Source: Nocardioides sp. HDW12B
GTDB taxonomy: Bacteria > Actinomycetota > Actinomycetes > Propionibacteriales > Nocardioidaceae
Direction of reading: 5' to 3'
Length of the DNA stretch: 64,000 nt
Assembly: GCF_011299595.1 (NCBI RefSeq)
Contig: NZ_CP049867.1
Coordinates: forward strand, 1,054,001-1,118,000
Shown here: positions 40,374 to 62,384 of the stretch, piece after piece
Layout: each line of letters begins with the position of its first letter
Position numbering within the stretch: position 1 is the first letter of the stretch
Made by a program: the position numbers and the translations under genes
The notes under the pieces: model-generated
What the model saw: only the letters and a program-made list of their open reading frames with translations
What the model was told of the DNA's origin: nothing
The model's database searches: none

Positions 40374-40446
40374 CGCCTCCCGCAGGCTCCGCGCGCAGCG
40401 CACGCGGGGCGACGTACGCCACAGGGGAGGGGTGCCCGAGCGGTGC

Positions 40447-40452
40447 TAGGGT
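40447..40452 (+). promoter_or_regulatory. -10 element of the cobalamin operon
   Basis: TAGGGT fits TANNNT and would start the transcript near 40459, immediately before the riboswitch. No clear -35 box is visible. Confidence 0.45.
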
Positions 40453-40458
40453 GAGGCG

Positions 40459-40616
40459 CCGCCGTCCGGCGGCACACAACTCATTCACCTCGCCTGCCAG
40501 GGGAAGCCGGTCCAAGTCCGGCGCTGACCCGCAACCGTAGCCCTCCCTCGGGAGGGGAGCCGGAACACCTGCGGCCAGGGGATCTGACATCCACGCTGTC
40601 GCGGAACGCAGGTGGA
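40459..40616 (+). promoter_or_regulatory. Cobalamin riboswitch
   Basis: The conserved core is recognisable. GCCAGGGGAAGCCGGTCCAA begins at 40496, followed by CGCTGACCCGCAACCGTA, a CCCTCC/GGAGGG stem, and the B12-box segment AGCCGGAACACCTGC at 40558-40572. A leading stem GCCGCCG/CGGCGGC precedes the core. CACCTGC in the B12 box is exactly complementary to GCAGGTG at 40608-40614, a plausible switching pair before the ribosome binding site. High cobalamin should shut off the downstream operon. Confidence 0.93.
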
Positions 40617-40661
40617 CTCCCTCCCGGGGTCCTGCCTGCATTGCAGCGGGAAGGGAAACCG

Positions 40662-41744
40662 ATGCGCTTCCAGCGCTCTGCTCACCGAGCCCTCCTGGGA
40701 CTCACCACCCTCGCCGTCGCCGCCGGTACGACGTTCGTCGGCCCGGCCGCCCAGGCCGCCACGGCTCCGGCGAGCGCCACCTCCGGCTGGCTGACCTCGC
40801 AGCTGCAGGACGGCATGCTGTTCACGACCTACGACGGGGTGCAGTACTCCAGCCCGGGCGTGACGCTCGACGCCGCCACGGCCATGCAGACCGCCGGCGT
40901 CCGGGCAGCGGCCCGCGACCGGGTGCTCGACCGCTTCGAGCGCGACGGCGCCGACTACTACGCGCCCGGAGGCAACGACTCCGCAGGCGGGATCGGCAAG
41001 ACCCTGACCTTCGTCCTCGGCGAGGGCGTCGACGCCGACACCTTCGAGCCCGGCCTCGACGAGCGCCTCGAGGACCGTCTCGTCACGAGCGGGCCCGAGG
41101 CGGGGCGCGCGAAGGACGAGGGCGCGCCGGACTACAGCAACACGATCACGCAGAGCTTCGTCGTGCGAGCCCTGACCCTGGACGCCCCGGGCGCCGCGAG
41201 CGCGGAGCGCGCGACCGACTTCCTGCTGCAGCAGCAGTGCGAGGCCGGCTTCTTCCGGACCTACATGGACTCGGCCGACTTCACCTGTGACGGCGGCACC
41301 GACGAGGAGAGCGGGCCGAGCGTGGACGCCACGGCCTTCGCCGTGCTGGCCCTGGCCGAGTTCGAGCGCACGAGCGGCAGCGACCCTGTCGTCGACACCG
41401 CGCTCGCCGACGCCCGACGGTGGCTCCTGCGGACGCAGGCCGCCAACGGCTCCTTCAGCGACGAGGGAGTCCGCAACGCGAACTCCACCGGCCTCGCGGC
41501 GCACGCACTGTCCGAGCTCGGTCGCAGCGCCGCCGCCCGCGACGCCGCCCGCTGGGTCGCGAAGCTGCGAGTCACCACGAAGATCGCCAACCAGACCGCG
41601 CTCGACAAGGCCGACGTGGGCGCCATCGCCTACACCGCGGCCGACCTCGCCGCGGCCAAGCGACGCGACATCACCGCCGACCGGCTGTACTACTGGCACA
41701 ACGCCTCCGCGCAGGCGCTGGTCTCGCAGAACCTGATCGGCTGA
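40662..41744 (+). CDS. Secreted alpha/alpha-barrel protein, intrinsic-factor alpha-domain-like
   Basis: A 360-residue product with a Sec signal peptide (HRALLGLTTLAVAAG, cleavage after AQA). It continues with repeated helix pairs of the prenyltransferase/squalene-cyclase-like alpha/alpha barrel: GVTLDAATAMQTAGV, SVDATAFAVLALAEFE, DARRWLLRTQAANGSF and NSTGLAAHALSELG. Mammalian intrinsic factor and transcobalamin use this barrel as their cobalamin-binding alpha domain. Its place directly behind a B12 riboswitch, and its four-base TGATG contact with the next gene, suggest an extracellular cobalamin binder. ATG 40662 follows GGAAGGG. Confidence 0.8.
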   Translation: MRFQRSAHRALLGLTTLAVAAGTTFVGPAAQAATAPASATSGWLTSQLQDGMLFTTYDGVQYSSPGVTLDAATAMQTAGVRAAARDRVLDRFERDGADYYAPGGNDSAGGIGKTLTFVLGEGVDADTFEPGLDERLEDRLVTSGPEAGRAKDEGAPDYSNTITQSFVVRALTLDAPGAASAERATDFLLQQQCEAGFFRTYMDSADFTCDGGTDEESGPSVDATAFAVLALAEFERTSGSDPVVDTALADARRWLLRTQAANGSFSDEGVRNANSTGLAAHALSELGRSAAARDAARWVAKLRVTTKIANQTALDKADVGAIAYTAADLAAAKRRDITADRLYYWHNASAQALVSQNLIG

Positions 41745-42703
41745 TGCAGCTCCGGCTCGCTCCGTCGAGGGCGGCGACCGTGGTCGCCGCCCTCGCGGTC
41801 TCGTTCGCTGCCCTCCCGGTCGTGGCGGGCGGGGCTCCCGCGGTCGCCTCGGCCGGCGCGTGCTCGCCGGGGACCGGCGTCACGATCGTGGTCGACCGGA
41901 ACCCCGGCGACGGCGCCGAGGGCGCGAAGTACTGCGCGTCCGGCAGCGGCCGGACGGCCAAGGCCGCGATGGAGGCCGCCGGCGTGCCGGTCGAGGAGGT
42001 CAGCTCCGAGCCGGGCTTCGTCTGCAAGATCCAGGGCTACCCCGCGGAGCAGTCCTGCCAGCAGACGCCGCCGGCGAGCGCCTTCTGGAAGCTCTACTGG
42101 TCCAACGGCACCTCGGCCAGCTGGAACGTGAGCTCCTACGGCTACGCCTCCCTCCGGGTGCCGACCGGTGGCTCGGTGGGCTGGGCCTACCAGGGCGGCG
42201 GCTCGGGGGCCCCCGACGGCTCCCCGAGCACGAAGCCGTCCCCGTCACCCTCGAAGCCGGCCGGTGGGTCCGGGGGGAGCACGAAGCCCTCACCCTCACC
42301 GAGCCAGCCGTCGGCCACGCCGTCGACGTCGGCCCCGGCGCCCTCCGCGTCCGCCTCCACCGCACCGAGCGCGAGCGCCTCGGCCGCGGAGCAGGCCGGT
42401 CCGAAGGTCAGGGAGAAGGCAGCACGCGAGAAGAAGGCCGACACGAAGGGTGAGAAGAAGTCGGACCGGAAGAAGGATGACGACGCTCCCGCCAAGCAGC
42501 GGGGTGCGGGTCGCGACGAGCCGACCGACCTGCTCGAGCCCTCCGAGGGCGAGACGGTGACCTCGGGCGAGCTCGCGACCCCGGTCAGCGCCGATGCCGC
42601 GGGCATGACGGGCAGCGACCTCGCCCTGCTGGGCGTGGCGGGCGTCTGCATCGCCGGGCTCGCCGCCTCGGCCCTCGTCATGGCACGACGTCGGAGGTCC
42701 TGA
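41744..42703 (+). CDS. Secreted, membrane-anchored protein with a transcobalamin-like (DUF4430) domain
   Basis: A 319-residue protein with a signal peptide (TVVAALAVSFAALPVVAGG). A beta domain occupies about residues 45-150: GRTAKAAMEAAGVPVEEV, GFVCKIQGYPAEQSC, FWKLYWSNGTSASW and GGSVGWAYQGG. This fits the DUF4430 family, whose fold is the C-terminal domain of intrinsic factor. A Pro/Ser/Lys-rich linker of about 130 residues leads to a C-terminal helix (LALLGVAGVCIAGLAASALV) and ARRRRS, a stop-transfer tail. It would hold the alpha-barrel partner at the membrane. Confidence 0.82.
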   Translation: MQLRLAPSRAATVVAALAVSFAALPVVAGGAPAVASAGACSPGTGVTIVVDRNPGDGAEGAKYCASGSGRTAKAAMEAAGVPVEEVSSEPGFVCKIQGYPAEQSCQQTPPASAFWKLYWSNGTSASWNVSSYGYASLRVPTGGSVGWAYQGGGSGAPDGSPSTKPSPSPSKPAGGSGGSTKPSPSPSQPSATPSTSAPAPSASASTAPSASASAAEQAGPKVREKAAREKKADTKGEKKSDRKKDDDAPAKQRGAGRDEPTDLLEPSEGETVTSGELATPVSADAAGMTGSDLALLGVAGVCIAGLAASALVMARRRRS

Positions 42704-42709
42704 CCCGGC

Positions 42710-43909
42710 GTGACGCACCCACCGGAGGCCGGGGCCACGAGCGCCGGCTCCGCCACGACAGCCGCCGCGGCGACCACGGGTCGCCGTCGGCGGCTGCCGC
42801 GCGACCTGCACCCGGTCGCCTGGTGGCTGTGGGCCCTCGGGCTGGCCGCCGCGGCGACCCGGACGACCAACCCCTGGCTGCTCGTCCTGATCGTGCTGGT
42901 CGCCTCGGTCACCGTGCTCGCGCGGCGCACCGACGCACCATGGGCGCTGTCGTTCCGGCTCTACCTCGTCCTGGGTGGCGTCGTGGTGCTGCTGCGCGTG
43001 GTCTTCCGCATCCTCTTCGGAAGCGGCTACGGCGAGACCGTGCTCCTCGACCTGCCGGCGGTGCCGCTGCCGGACTGGGCGGCGGGCATCACGCTGCTGG
43101 GACCGGTCGCACTCGAGTCGCTGCTCGCGGGTGCCTACGACGGCATGCGCCTGGCGACGGTCATCATCTGTGTCGGAGCGGCCAACTCGCTGGCCGACCC
43201 GCGCAAGCTGCTGGCCTCGCTGCCCGCGGCGCTCTACGAGGTGGGGACGGCCGTGGTGATCGCCTTCTCGCTGTTCCCGCAGCTCGCCGAGTCCGTCCAG
43301 CGCGTACGACGAGCCCGTCGCCTCCGCGGTGAGACCGGACGGGGCATCCGTGCCCTGCGGCGGATCGTCGTCCCGGTGCTCGAGGACGCCCTGGACCGGT
43401 CGGTCGCCCTGGCCGCGAGCATGGACGCCCGGGGCTACGGCCGCTCGGGTGCCACGAGCCACCGCCGGGTCACCGGGGCCTTCCTGCTGATGGGTCTGCT
43501 CGGGCTCGTCGTGGGGTCCTACGCCTATCTCGACACGACCGCGCCCCGGGTGCTGGCCTGGCCGATGCTGGTGGTCGGCCTCGCGCTGGCGCTGGGCGGG
43601 TTCCTGGCCGCCGGCCGCGGCGTGGCTCGGACCCGCTACCGGCCGCCGCGCTGGCTGGCGGCCGACGTGCTGACCGCCGTGACCGGGCTGGTGGCCGCGG
43701 TGCTGATGACGGTGGCCGCCCGCGACCTCGTCGTGGTGCTGCCCGACCCGTCCCGGGTCCCGCCGCTGTCGTCGCTGGCCCTGCTGGCGTGCCTGGTCGG
43801 GCTCGTCCCCGCCTTCGCCACACCGCCGCCGGTGCTCGGACCCACGACGGGCCAGGCCGGCGCGACCGACGACGTGGCAGGAGGTGAGCCCCTTGCTCGC
43901 GTGGCGTGA
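42710..43909 (+). CDS. ECF transporter transmembrane subunit EcfT
   Basis: A 399-residue membrane protein with about eight hydrophobic segments. It carries the two Arg-rich coupling-helix motifs that contact the ATPases: RVRRARRLRGETGRG and AASMDARGYGRSG, the latter with the Ala-Arg-Gly signature. EcfT joins the S component to the ATPases in energy-coupling factor vitamin importers. The start is GTG 42710, six bases after the preceding gene. Two extra C-terminal helices make it longer than a typical EcfT of about 265 residues. Confidence 0.88.
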   Translation: MTHPPEAGATSAGSATTAAAATTGRRRRLPRDLHPVAWWLWALGLAAAATRTTNPWLLVLIVLVASVTVLARRTDAPWALSFRLYLVLGGVVVLLRVVFRILFGSGYGETVLLDLPAVPLPDWAAGITLLGPVALESLLAGAYDGMRLATVIICVGAANSLADPRKLLASLPAALYEVGTAVVIAFSLFPQLAESVQRVRRARRLRGETGRGIRALRRIVVPVLEDALDRSVALAASMDARGYGRSGATSHRRVTGAFLLMGLLGLVVGSYAYLDTTAPRVLAWPMLVVGLALALGGFLAAGRGVARTRYRPPRWLAADVLTAVTGLVAAVLMTVAARDLVVVLPDPSRVPPLSSLALLACLVGLVPAFATPPPVLGPTTGQAGATDDVAGGEPLARVA

Positions 43910-45530
43910 GGTGTCCTTCGCCTACGACCCGGACGCCGAGCCGGTTCTGCGCGGCGTCGACCTCGAGATCGAGGAGTCCGAGCTGGTGCTGGTCGCCGGG
44001 CGCACCGGCAGCGGCAAGTCGACGCTGCTGCGCACCCTGAACGGCCTGGTCCCGCGCTTCAGCGGCGGGGTGCTGAGCGGCGACGTGGTGGTCGGCGGGC
44101 GGTCGGTCCGTGACGCCAGCCCCCGCGAGCTGGCCGACCTGGTGGGCTTCGTGGGTCAGGACCCGGTGCAGTCGTTCGTCACCGAGGTCGTCGAGGACGA
44201 GCTGGCCTACGGCATGGAGCAGCTCGGCGTCGCCCCCGGCACCATGCGCCGCCGCGTCGAGGAGACCCTCGACCTGCTCGGCATCTCCGAGCTGCGGTCC
44301 CGCTCGTTGCGCACGCTCTCGGGCGGCCAGCAGCAGCGGGTCGCCATCGGCGCGGTTCTCACGATGCACCCGCGGGCTCTGGTGCTCGACGAGCCGACGT
44401 CGGCCCTCGACCCGACCGCGGCCGAGGAGGTCCTCGGCACCCTGGCCCGGCTCGTCGACGACCTGGGACTCACCGTCGTGCTCGCCGAGCACCGCATGGA
44501 GCGGGTCGTGCCGTTCGCCGACCGGCTCGTGCTCGTCGAGGACGGCCGGGTGCAGGTCGGCGACCCGGCGACGATGCTGGAGACCTCGGTCGTCGCGCCG
44601 CCGGTGGTGGAGCTCGGACGTCTCGCCGGCTGGAGCCCGCTGCCGCTGTCGGTGCGCGAGGCCCGGCGACGCTCGCGCGCGCTCAGTGAGCGGCTGGCAG
44701 CAGCCCCGCCGCCGGTGCGTCTCGCCGCGCGCCCGGCCGAGCTGGACACCGCCCCGGACGCGGGCACGACGTCGGGCGGGGCCCCGGCCCCGGTGCTGCG
44801 CGCCACCGACGTGGTCGTGACCTACGGCCGCACGGTCGCGGTGCGTCACGTCTCCCTCGACGCCCACGCCGGGCGGGTGACCGCGATCATGGGCCGCAAC
44901 GGCTCGGGCAAGTCCTCGCTGCTGTGGGCGTTGCAGGGCACCGGTCGACGCCACGGAGGGCGCGTCCTGGTCGAGGGCACCGACCCGGCCGAGGTCGACG
45001 TACCGGCACGGCTGGTGGGGCTGGTGCCGCAGTCGGCCACCGACCTGCTCTACCTCGAGACCGTCGCCGCGGAGTGCGCCGCCGCGGACCGGCAGGCCGG
45101 CGTCGCCGCGGGCTCCTGCCGCGCGCTGCTCGACGAGCTCGTCCCCGACGTGCCCGACGACCGGCACCCGCGCGACCTCTCCGAGGGCCAGCGGCTGTGC
45201 CTCGTGCTGGCGATCGTGCTCGTGGCCAGCCCGCCGGTGGTGGTGCTCGACGAGCCGACCCGCGGCCTGGACTACGCCGCCAAGGCCCACCTCGCCGACA
45301 TCGTGCGGCGCCTGGCCGGTCAGGGCCGGGCCGTGCTGACGGCCTCCCACGACGTCGAGTTCGTCGCGCAGGTCGCCGACGAGGTGGTCGTGATGGCCGC
45401 GGGGGAGACGGTCTCGTCGGGCCCGACCGCCGCGGTGCTGGCCGAGTCGCCGGCCTTCGCGCCGCAGACCACCAAGATCCTCGGCGACGGCTGGCTGACC
45501 GTCGAGCAGGTCCGGGCGGTGGTGGCGTGA
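43884..45530 (+). CDS. ECF transporter ATPase, EcfA1-EcfA2 fusion
   Basis: A 548-residue protein with two ABC ATPase domains. The first has Walker A GRTGSGKST, Q-loop VGQDP, signature LSGGQQQRVAIG and Walker B LVLDEPTSALD. The second has Walker A GRNGSGKSS, signature LSEGQRLCLVLA and Walker B VVLDEPTRGLD. Both sets are intact, so both can hydrolyse ATP. The GTG at 43884 lies inside a strong GGAGG, which would serve better for a TTG at 43893; the true start may be the TTG. It overlaps the EcfT gene. Confidence 0.9.
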   Translation: MSPLLAWREVSFAYDPDAEPVLRGVDLEIEESELVLVAGRTGSGKSTLLRTLNGLVPRFSGGVLSGDVVVGGRSVRDASPRELADLVGFVGQDPVQSFVTEVVEDELAYGMEQLGVAPGTMRRRVEETLDLLGISELRSRSLRTLSGGQQQRVAIGAVLTMHPRALVLDEPTSALDPTAAEEVLGTLARLVDDLGLTVVLAEHRMERVVPFADRLVLVEDGRVQVGDPATMLETSVVAPPVVELGRLAGWSPLPLSVREARRRSRALSERLAAAPPPVRLAARPAELDTAPDAGTTSGGAPAPVLRATDVVVTYGRTVAVRHVSLDAHAGRVTAIMGRNGSGKSSLLWALQGTGRRHGGRVLVEGTDPAEVDVPARLVGLVPQSATDLLYLETVAAECAAADRQAGVAAGSCRALLDELVPDVPDDRHPRDLSEGQRLCLVLAIVLVASPPVVVLDEPTRGLDYAAKAHLADIVRRLAGQGRAVLTASHDVEFVAQVADEVVVMAAGETVSSGPTAAVLAESPAFAPQTTKILGDGWLTVEQVRAVVA

Positions 45531-46447
45531 GCACGCTGCGCGCCTCCCGCCGTGACGGCCCCGGCACCCGCGGCGCCGACCCGGTCGGACGCCACCTGCT
45601 GCCGCTGGGCCGCCGCTCCGCCGCGGTGCTGGGCCTCGCCTCGCTGGCCGGGCTGCTGATGTTCGCCTGGCCGCTGCTGCTGGTGCCGGACCCCGGGGCC
45701 GCCCAGGTGGCCCCGCCGTTCCTGTTCCTGGCCCTGCTGCCGGTGGTCGTCCTCGTGGTGCTCGCCGAGCTGTCCGAGGGCGGGATGGACGCCCGGTCGA
45801 TGGCCCTGCTCGGCGTGCTCACCGCGGTGAACGCGGCGCTGCGCAGCCTGAGCGCGGGCGTGGCCGGCGTCGAGCTCGTCTTCTTCCTGCTGGTGCTGGC
45901 CGGGCGCGTGTTCGGGCCCGGGTTCGGCTTCGTGCTCGGGTGCACCTCGCTGTTCACCTCGGCGCTGCTGACCTCCGGCGTCGGCCCGTGGCTGCCCTAC
46001 CAGATGCTGTGCGCGGCCTGGGTCGGGCTGGGCGCCGGGCTGCTGCCGCGCCGGGTGTTCGGGCGGCCGCTGCTGGGGCGCCGCGAGATCGCGGTGCTCG
46101 TGGTCTACGGCATCCTGTGCGCCTATCTCTTCGGCCTGCTGATGAACCTCTCGTCGTGGCCCTACACGCTCGGCATCGCGGTCCCCGGCCACGAGGGCAC
46201 GCTGTCCTACGTGCCGGGCGCGCCGCTGGTCGAGAACCTCCAGCGCTTCGGGATCTACACGCTGCTGACCTCCACCGGCGGCTGGGACACCGGCCGCGCG
46301 ATCACCAACACCCTGGCGATCCTCCTGCTCGGCCCGGCGGTCCTCGCCACCCTGCGGCGCGCCGCCCGCAAGGTCGCGTACGCCGCTCCCGTCGCGTCCG
46401 CGACGGACGCGACCTCGGGGCAGACGCCGGGACCCGGCACGCGCTGA
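45527..46447 (+). CDS. ECF transporter substrate-binding S component, probably for cobalamin
   Basis: A 306-residue membrane protein. After a basic N-terminus it shows six or more hydrophobic segments: AAVLGLASLAGLLMFAWPLL, PVVVLVVLAELSEGG, GVLTAVNAALRSLSAGV and VFGPGFGFVLGCTSLFTSAL. The Ala-x-x-x-Ala/Asn-rich first helix used to bind EcfT can be seen at AVNAALR. S components capture the vitamin. The B12 riboswitch and the intrinsic-factor-like partners make cobalamin the probable ligand. The GTG overlaps the ATPase stop by four bases. Confidence 0.82.
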   Translation: MSTLRASRRDGPGTRGADPVGRHLLPLGRRSAAVLGLASLAGLLMFAWPLLLVPDPGAAQVAPPFLFLALLPVVVLVVLAELSEGGMDARSMALLGVLTAVNAALRSLSAGVAGVELVFFLLVLAGRVFGPGFGFVLGCTSLFTSALLTSGVGPWLPYQMLCAAWVGLGAGLLPRRVFGRPLLGRREIAVLVVYGILCAYLFGLLMNLSSWPYTLGIAVPGHEGTLSYVPGAPLVENLQRFGIYTLLTSTGGWDTGRAITNTLAILLLGPAVLATLRRAARKVAYAAPVASATDATSGQTPGPGTR

Positions 46448-47379
46448 TGGTCCACCTGCCCGCCGGGGTGCGCGGCATGGCCGGCCGCGGCGAGACCTGG
46501 GCCGCCTGGGTCCGCGGGCTGCCCCGGCTGGCGGACGACCTGCTGGGGGAGTGGGACCTGCGCCAGGACGGCCTGGCCCAGCACGGCTACACGGCGCTCG
46601 TGCTCCCGGTCCGGGACCGCCAGGAGCAGCCGACCGTGCTCAAGATCGCCTTCCCCGACGACGAGTCGGCGTACGAGCACCTGGCGCTGCGGACCTGGCA
46701 GGGCCACGGTGCCGTGCGTCTGGTCCGGGCCGACCCGCGGCGGCGGGCGCTGCTGCTGGAGCGGCTGGAGGACCGCACGCTCGACACCGTCGACGCGATC
46801 GAGGCCTGCGAGGTCGTGGCCGGGCTCTACGGCCGGCTGCACGTGCCGGCCCCGCCCCAGCTTGACCTGCTGTCGGCCCGGGCGGCGCGCTGGGCCACCC
46901 GGCTGCGGGCCCTGCCGCGCGGCGCGCCGGTGCCGCACCGGCTCGTCGAGCAGGCCGCCTCCCTGGCCGAGGACCTGGCGCTCGACCCCGCCACCGACGG
47001 GCGGCTGGTCCACTTCGACCTGCACTTCCGCAACGTCCTGGCCGCCGGGCGCGGACCGTGGCTGGCGATCGACCCCAAGCCGCTGAGCGGTGACCCGCAC
47101 GCGGAGGTCGCCCCGATGCTGTGGAACCGCTGGGACGAGGTGGTCGCGAGCGGCGACGTGCGCGAGGCCGTCCGAGACCGGTTCTTCACCCTCGTCGACC
47201 ACGCCGAGCTCGACGAGGACCGGGCACGCGCCTGGGTCGTGCTGCGGGAGATGGTGATGGCCGTCGAGGAGCTCACCGCCGACGACGCGGGGCGCCGGTC
47301 CGAGAGCGCCGCCGCGGCGGCCGCGGTCACCACCGCAGTCACCATCGCGGTCACCATCGCGAAGGCCGTGCAGGACTGA
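46447..47379 (+). CDS. APH(6)/hydroxyurea-type phosphotransferase co-transcribed with the ECF genes
   Basis: A 310-residue kinase of the streptomycin 6-kinase-like family. It has VLKIAFPDDESAYEHLALRT (nucleotide lobe), RRRALLLERLEDRTLD (hinge), and the catalytic loop VHFDLHFRNVLAAG. The metal motif WLAIDPKPLSGDPHAEVAPM completes it. Its ATG overlaps the S-component stop (TGATG), so it belongs to the cobalamin operon. Possible roles are phosphorylation of a corrinoid side-chain precursor or an unrelated compound; neither is shown by the sequence. An Ala/Thr/Val-rich tail ends the protein. Confidence 0.8.
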   Translation: MVHLPAGVRGMAGRGETWAAWVRGLPRLADDLLGEWDLRQDGLAQHGYTALVLPVRDRQEQPTVLKIAFPDDESAYEHLALRTWQGHGAVRLVRADPRRRALLLERLEDRTLDTVDAIEACEVVAGLYGRLHVPAPPQLDLLSARAARWATRLRALPRGAPVPHRLVEQAASLAEDLALDPATDGRLVHFDLHFRNVLAAGRGPWLAIDPKPLSGDPHAEVAPMLWNRWDEVVASGDVREAVRDRFFTLVDHAELDEDRARAWVVLREMVMAVEELTADDAGRRSESAAAAAAVTTAVTIAVTIAKAVQD

Positions 47380-62253: not shown

Positions 62254-62329
62254 CACGGGCCTCGACGGAGACCCCGACGTCATGGTCACCCGGGCGTCCT
62301 AGACTGGCCCCCGAGCCGAACCGGCTCGA

Positions 62330-62369
62330 CCGGACGAGGGAGCCGTACCCGGACCGCGACAAGACGGCC
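62330..62369 (+). promoter_or_regulatory. Guanidine-III riboswitch (ykkC-III)
   Basis: CCGGACGAGG, GCCGTACCCGG and GACAAGACGGC occur in the order and near spacing of the guanidine-III class, whose H-type pseudoknot binds guanidinium. It ends 15 bases before the SMR gene start, so it can cover the GAGGAG ribosome binding site. A GAGCC/GGCTC hairpin at 62313-62327 lies just upstream, and TAGACT at 62300-62305 may be the -10 box. Confidence 0.92.
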
Positions 62370-62384
62370 ACCGAGGAGTCCGTC

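Follow-up and report, generated by a model that had tools for sequence, protein, structure and literature searches.

The window analysed here is a stretch of 64,000 nucleotides from the complete 4.19 Mb genome of Nocardioides sp. HDW12B (GCF_011299595.1, NZ_CP049867.1, forward strand, 1,054,001 to 1,118,000), and the feature under study, at window positions 40,459 to 47,379, is an operon led by a cobalamin riboswitch and encoding two predicted secreted proteins, an energy-coupling factor (ECF) transporter and a kinase. An earlier, sequence-only reading had described a riboswitch followed by six tightly packed genes, which was confirmed by a match to the Rfam model RF00174 and by six open reading frames on the plus strand, all open where that reading had placed them and either overlapping or spaced by no more than 10 bases. 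We consider it probable, at roughly three chances in four, that this is a riboswitch-controlled operon for the capture and import of cobalamin (cobamide), in which a two-part clamp, composed of a barrel protein and a beta-grasp protein, feeds the ECF transporter. The riboswitch, the protein folds, the ECF module, the conservation and the gene fusions described below were computed, and secretion signals were judged by eye from the translations.

The aptamer lies at 40446..40590. In a search of a 461-base stretch, the leader matched RF00174 with an E-value of 3.4e-6, covering model positions 1-189, and its score of 31.0 bits narrowly missed the curated gathering cut-off of 31.5 bits; a scan of the window at the Rfam gathering threshold does not list it. 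Orthologous leaders exceed the gathering score in 14 of 29 cases. A whole-genome search with the same model gave two matches, the operon leader (E 7.2e-6) and a second cobalamin riboswitch (L071 8815-9002, genome 2938814-2939001; 81.4 bits), which precedes nrdAB, encoding a B12-independent ribonucleotide reductase, and thereby fits B12 sensing. Across 23 aligned leaders of this operon type, all first found with, and hence preselected by, RF00174, the B12 aptamer core is strongly conserved, and a riboswitch model built from them (R1) matches the window at 40470-40590 with 116 bits, the window leader being one of its 23 training sequences. A strong hairpin is predicted between the aptamer and the start codon. 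At low intracellular B12 the leader RNA would permit expression, and B12 would shut the operon off.

Directly downstream, the first gene (40662..41744) encodes a 360-residue alpha/alpha barrel protein with a signal peptide and no visible anchor, SCO2321-like by NCBI family, and the second (41744..42703) a 319-residue protein of the transcobalamin beta-grasp type that carries a signal peptide, a linker rich in Ser, Pro and Lys and, at the C-terminus, a membrane segment with an Arg tail. They are followed by EcfT of the CbiQ family (42710..43909; Pfam CbiQ, E 3.5e-11), a fused EcfA-EcfA ATPase (43884..45530), with two Pfam ABC_tran domains and a match to NCBIfam ECF_ATPase_2 at E 1.4e-86, below that model's cut-off, and an ECF S component (45527..46447) whose family is distinct and actinobacterial and which matches Pfam ECF_trnsprt and ECF-ribofla_trS at E about 8e-6, both below their cut-offs. 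The ECF assignment made earlier was borne out, with EcfT, two EcfA domains and, by those sub-threshold matches, an S component in a single operon. Judged by their families, the S component, EcfT and the fused ATPase would move cobalamin inward in an ATPase-driven manner.

Conservation of the operon across Actinomycetota

Using the S component as query (A1), we scanned genome_contigs, a selection in which the barrel and beta proteins play no part. At least 594 pattern-matched stretches were returned, at least 478 of them encoding an S relative (tblastn E <= 1e-3), and we retained the 80 best, which come from Nocardioides, Aeromicrobium, Kribbella, Amycolatopsis, Actinomadura, Saccharothrix, Phytohabitans, Ornithinimicrobium, Streptomyces and other genera. 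Sixteen loci with less than 6.5 kb ahead of the S domain were set aside. Among the 64 counted, EcfT and EcfA are present in every one, a beta gene in 61, and barrel and beta together in 56, while a riboswitch (R1, E <= 0.01) lies upstream in 63; because R1 was built from such leaders, the 80 represent the nearest relatives and ancestry is shared, these counts are not independent events. In a smaller set of S relatives beside EcfT and EcfA (n=29), identity to the window S component was 58-79%.

Searches that started from the other genes gave a similar arrangement. The barrel was present in 88 of 149 family genomes, host included, and a cobalamin riboswitch stands beside it in 27 of 29 loci from among the best of that search (16/16 and 11/13; Rfam E <= 0.1). 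A search of 296 genomes of the phylum with the beta profile was positive in 53, and 20 loci were read, one each from 20 of those 53 genomes: a riboswitch precedes the barrel or beta gene in 18 (weakly in L186, at 17.7 bits), S, EcfT and EcfA occur together in 17, and a barrel in 15. Elsewhere a lone barrel or beta gene is under a riboswitch of its own (L075, L077, L079, L087, L088, L104, L105, L145 and L188). In L075 (2013-3104, minus strand), as well as L077, L079 and L104, a divergent second barrel gene has its own riboswitch back to back with that of the operon, and in L188 (4908-5619, plus strand) a stand-alone beta gene, with its own riboswitch and a lipobox-like signal by eye, lies opposite the main operon. 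In L082, L090 and L119, the latter two from Aeromicrobium, the beta gene follows S, and the fetched stretch contains no barrel. The barrel or barrel-beta products of three loci (L187 8341-10149, L189 4483-6834, L190 4069-6381) have repeats at the C-terminus that by eye resemble S-layer or cell-wall-binding modules.

The sixth gene (46447..47379) encodes an APH(6)/hydroxyurea-type kinase, as the sequence-only reading had it (Pfam APH_6_hur, E 9e-33; below the NCBI family cut-offs), but it lies outside the conserved core. Of 40 fetched loci, several of which are cut short and one of which, L071, is not an operon locus, 4 contain it, all in genomes of the same genus; in the 80 S-component loci it was absent at E <= 1e-40. 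On these counts we judged the kinase peripheral, a genus-level add-on, and dropped it as a part of the uptake system. Elsewhere in the window, a Guanidine-III riboswitch lies at 62308-62372 on the plus strand (49.9 bits).

The barrel and beta proteins

The two secreted proteins are remote from named families. The barrel matches Pfam TED_complement at E 3.7e-6 and PF01122 (Cobalamin_bind) at E 0.001, with 18.6 bits against a cut-off of 25, and PF01122 is reached at E <= 0.1 by 10 of 77 barrel relatives. NCBIfam SCO2321_fam is matched by the window barrel at E 2.7e-11 (43 bits; cut-off 300) and at E <= 0.001 by 72 of the 77. Searches with the single barrel sequence gave no link to the B12 carriers, the sole PDB match being a designed repeat (E 0.72) and a scan of genome_contigs giving 29 pattern matches with no confirmed relatives. 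Structures were predicted for the window's own barrel and beta, and the AlphaFold2 model of the barrel (predicted local distance difference test score, pLDDT, 95.9) is an alpha/alpha toroid.

The beta protein had been described as secreted, membrane-anchored and of DUF4430 type; the secretion signal and anchor were seen by eye, but the match to DUF4430 (PF14478) reached 14.8 bits (E 0.04), below the cut-off of 23.8, and at E <= 0.1 that domain was found in 1 of 75 beta relatives and in 2 of 23 in a wider set. SCO2322_fam is matched at E <= 0.001 by 19 of the 75, and by the window beta not at all at that threshold. Because the DUF4430 match is this weak, the identity of the protein rests on its predicted fold, a beta-grasp like that of the beta domain in transcobalamin. 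Its best structural matches, clearly ahead of any other fold, are animal B12 carriers and a single bacterial protein, 3u7z, and identity to the animal carriers over the beta domain is 10-20%. By a DSSP reading without superposition, the model contains the hairpin insert after the helix by which this clade has been defined (PMC1796856), with the helix at 38-44, strands at 49-51 and 59-62, and the core strand at 79-86.

Barrel and beta are joined in one stop-free frame at 11 distinct loci, in both orders: barrel first in L136 (= L053), L055, L047, L175, L189 and L190, and beta first in L063, L103 (= L072), L095, L124 and L134. L142 formally qualifies and was excluded since its barrel spans two frames. 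The fusion in L136 (5604-7307) sits directly behind the riboswitch and ahead of EcfT, and is a 568-residue chain with, by eye, a signal peptide, barrel, beta domain and membrane segment, a layout that broadly recalls a bacterial intrinsic factor in one chain. In the window, the separate barrel and the anchored beta would form a two-part clamp outside the membrane, with cobalamin sandwiched between them, much as the alpha and beta domains within one chain of transcobalamin or intrinsic factor enclose it; the anchored protein would hold the complex at the membrane, and the clamp would pass cobalamin to the S component. That these two proteins form such a dedicated extracytoplasmic device, closing on cobalamin and handing it to a new S family, is a view towards which we lean, with somewhat less assurance than for cobalamin import by the operon as a whole.

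Probable host requirement for B12 and competing explanations

The host genome contains several B12-related proteins: MetH, two methylmalonyl-CoA mutases, a MeaB-linked B12 protein, an ornithine aminomutase-type protein, and NrdJ (621 bits), which is encoded apart from nrdAB. At E <= 0.001 it has no match to CbiC, CobS, MetE (TIGR01371) or ABC_membrane_2 (PF06472), the last being the family of the mycobacterial cobalamin transporter. With several B12 enzymes present and no CbiC, CobS or MetE, the host most likely needs complete cobamides from outside. Its FecCD permeases comprise an adjacent pair that, with its PF01497 binder, resembles a siderophore system, and a weak third (27.1 bits, cut-off 26.5), and there is one distant binder; the operon proteins themselves carry no FecCD or PF01497 domain by Pfam and so are not of the BtuFCD type. 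The organism resembles a B12 auxotroph in which the transporter families searched show no other clear B12 importer, and the operon is the best candidate for its B12 importer, probably the main or only one. A histidine kinase with B12-binding domains (L157, genome 3420765-3421115), possibly a B12- or light-dependent sensor, is encoded elsewhere in the genome.

Several observations weigh against cobalamin capture by a barrel-beta clamp. The barrel fold is generic, with Foldseek placing terpene cyclases at the top together with sugar-active proteins (GH105/GH76 enzymes and sugar epimerases) and the first transcobalamin row at rank 41, so that the predicted structure gives no specific link to intrinsic factor; of the earlier comparison with the intrinsic factor alpha domain, the alpha/alpha toroid is supported. 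A structural list for the barrel from VIA holds no B12 carrier in 50 rows, which excludes nothing, and a PDB search with the barrel profile gave squalene-hopene cyclases and complement C4, and no B12 carrier, at E <= 1. For the beta model, none of 117 Foldseek matches had E <= 0.001 (best 0.0094), and beta profiles found no PDB chain at E <= 10. The S profile found no PDB chain at E <= 1, so that no solved S component was reached, and the best NCBI match of the S family, a weak one, is to the folate S family. No barrel stands at the expected place in 8 of the 64 S loci and 5 of the 20 phylum loci; the stretches of L178 and L189 contain a riboswitch, a barrel and a beta gene and no EcfT or S; and in L179 (2297-7852) riboswitch, barrel and beta lie on one strand and EcfT, EcfA and S on the other, which shows that the two operon halves can be separate transcription units. 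An expected link between barrel presence and loss of de novo B12 synthesis was unsupported, since among the 149 family genomes, host included, 46 had both barrel and CbiC, 42 the barrel only, 36 CbiC only and 25 neither (Fisher p 0.50).

The most serious competitor, which we regard as unlikely though worth keeping in view, is that S and EcfT-EcfA import cobalamin alone and that barrel and beta are accessory and separate, the beta for example capturing the vitamin and the barrel acting at the cell wall. It draws on loci with beta and no barrel beside the S gene (L115, L122, L138 and L150 among the S loci; L176, L182, L184, L191 and L192 in the phylum sample), on L082, L119 and L126, where neither is found upstream (L082 and L119 carry a beta after S), on PDB entry 5np4, by its title the human transcobalamin beta domain alone with cyanocobalamin, and on ECF-CbrT, whose S component itself binds cobalamin (PMC5997447). 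The 11 fusions and the joint presence of both genes upstream in most S loci speak for a concerted action of the two proteins. Two of the beta-only loci, L191 (7976-8374, minus strand) and L192 (7654-8052, minus strand), encode a lipobox-like beta by eye that adjoins EcfT, two EcfA and S, lack a barrel and a riboswitch match, and perhaps represent a beta-only form or serve another substrate.

Less likely again is that the module handles another corrinoid or precursor, such as cobinamide or a cobamide that carries a different lower base, or some other B12-regulated compound. Riboswitches of this class sense cobalamin whatever substrate is transported, and the S profile, with its weak NCBI match and empty PDB search, leaves room for such a substrate. 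However, the B12 enzymes of the host require a complete cobamide, and with no CobS match, it would lack the usual route for completing cobinamide. Transport of folate or riboflavin, with an incidental riboswitch link, is very improbable: the window S component scores 22.7 bits against a cut-off of 60 for the folate S family, matched at E <= 0.001 by 11 of 30 S members (best E 4.3e-7), and 26.5 against 26.7 for the riboflavin S family, whereas a cobalamin riboswitch accompanies nearly all S loci and a neighbouring protein has a B12-carrier fold. Least probable of all is a role of the barrel as a secreted enzyme, either a terpene cyclase or a sugar hydrolase, in an operon unrelated to B12 capture, as its top fold matches would allow, given that DxDD, the catalytic motif of class II terpene cyclases, occurs in none of 77 barrel rows and that riboswitch and beta partner speak otherwise.

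For the split intrinsic factor with ECF import that the sequence-only reading had put forward, support is partial: the beta fold, the toroid, the fusions, the riboswitch and the auxotroph-like host speak for it, the barrel fold is generic and the kinase is peripheral.

Relation to known systems and significance

The association is less new than the sequence-only reading had implied, because it was already proposed by Burroughs, Balaji, Iyer and Aravind in 2007, who described a transcobalamin-like SLBB clade in bacteria with a toroid fused on either side and operons with a CbiO-like ATPase and CbiQ, predicted B12 scavenging, and suggested a bacterial origin of the animal B12 carriers (PMC1796856). 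The window has the toroid, CbiO-like ATPase and CbiQ of those operons, and secreted beta-grasp domains and fusions in both orders are likewise shared (PMC1796856). The main text of that study names low-GC Gram-positives, planctomycetes and euryarchaea for the clade, mentions actinobacteria only for ComEA and does not use the word riboswitch; the operons described here differ in belonging to Actinomycetota and in having a cobalamin riboswitch, a usually split barrel and beta, and an S component, which does not appear in the 2007 text examined (PMC1796856). In the open-licence literature, we found no later paper in which SLBB/toroid proteins are tested or connected with an ECF S component.

Compared with transcobalamin, intrinsic factor and haptocorrin, each a single chain, the binder here would consist of two polypeptides, one of them membrane-anchored, and would deliver to a membrane transporter instead of an endocytic receptor. 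ECF-CbrT of Lactobacillus delbrueckii likewise combines an ECF module with an S component for cobalamin, the putative function here, but CbrT captures the vitamin on its own, and its ECF module also serves other S components (PMC5997447), whereas here the S gene accompanies its own EcfT-EcfA and extracytoplasmic partners. With BtuF-BtuCD, the operon would have in common an extracytoplasmic cobalamin binder that feeds an ABC importer, with unrelated binder folds and an ECF-type transporter, and with BtuG of Bacteroides a presumed surface capture of cobalamin, BtuG being from another phylum and working with BtuB at the outer membrane (PMC6143338).

These results offer a testable function for SCO2321 and SCO2322, whose NCBI family names give none and which most barrels and some betas match, and for an S family with at least 478 related stretches, and they suggest a route of cobalamin uptake other than BtuFCD that many actinobacteria may use. 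The barrel and beta proteins would be a bacterial counterpart, both split and fused, of the two-domain B12 carriers of animals. If this is true, the working rule that the S component alone binds the substrate in ECF transporters would be broken, and a split form of intrinsic factor could be obtained from living actinobacteria.

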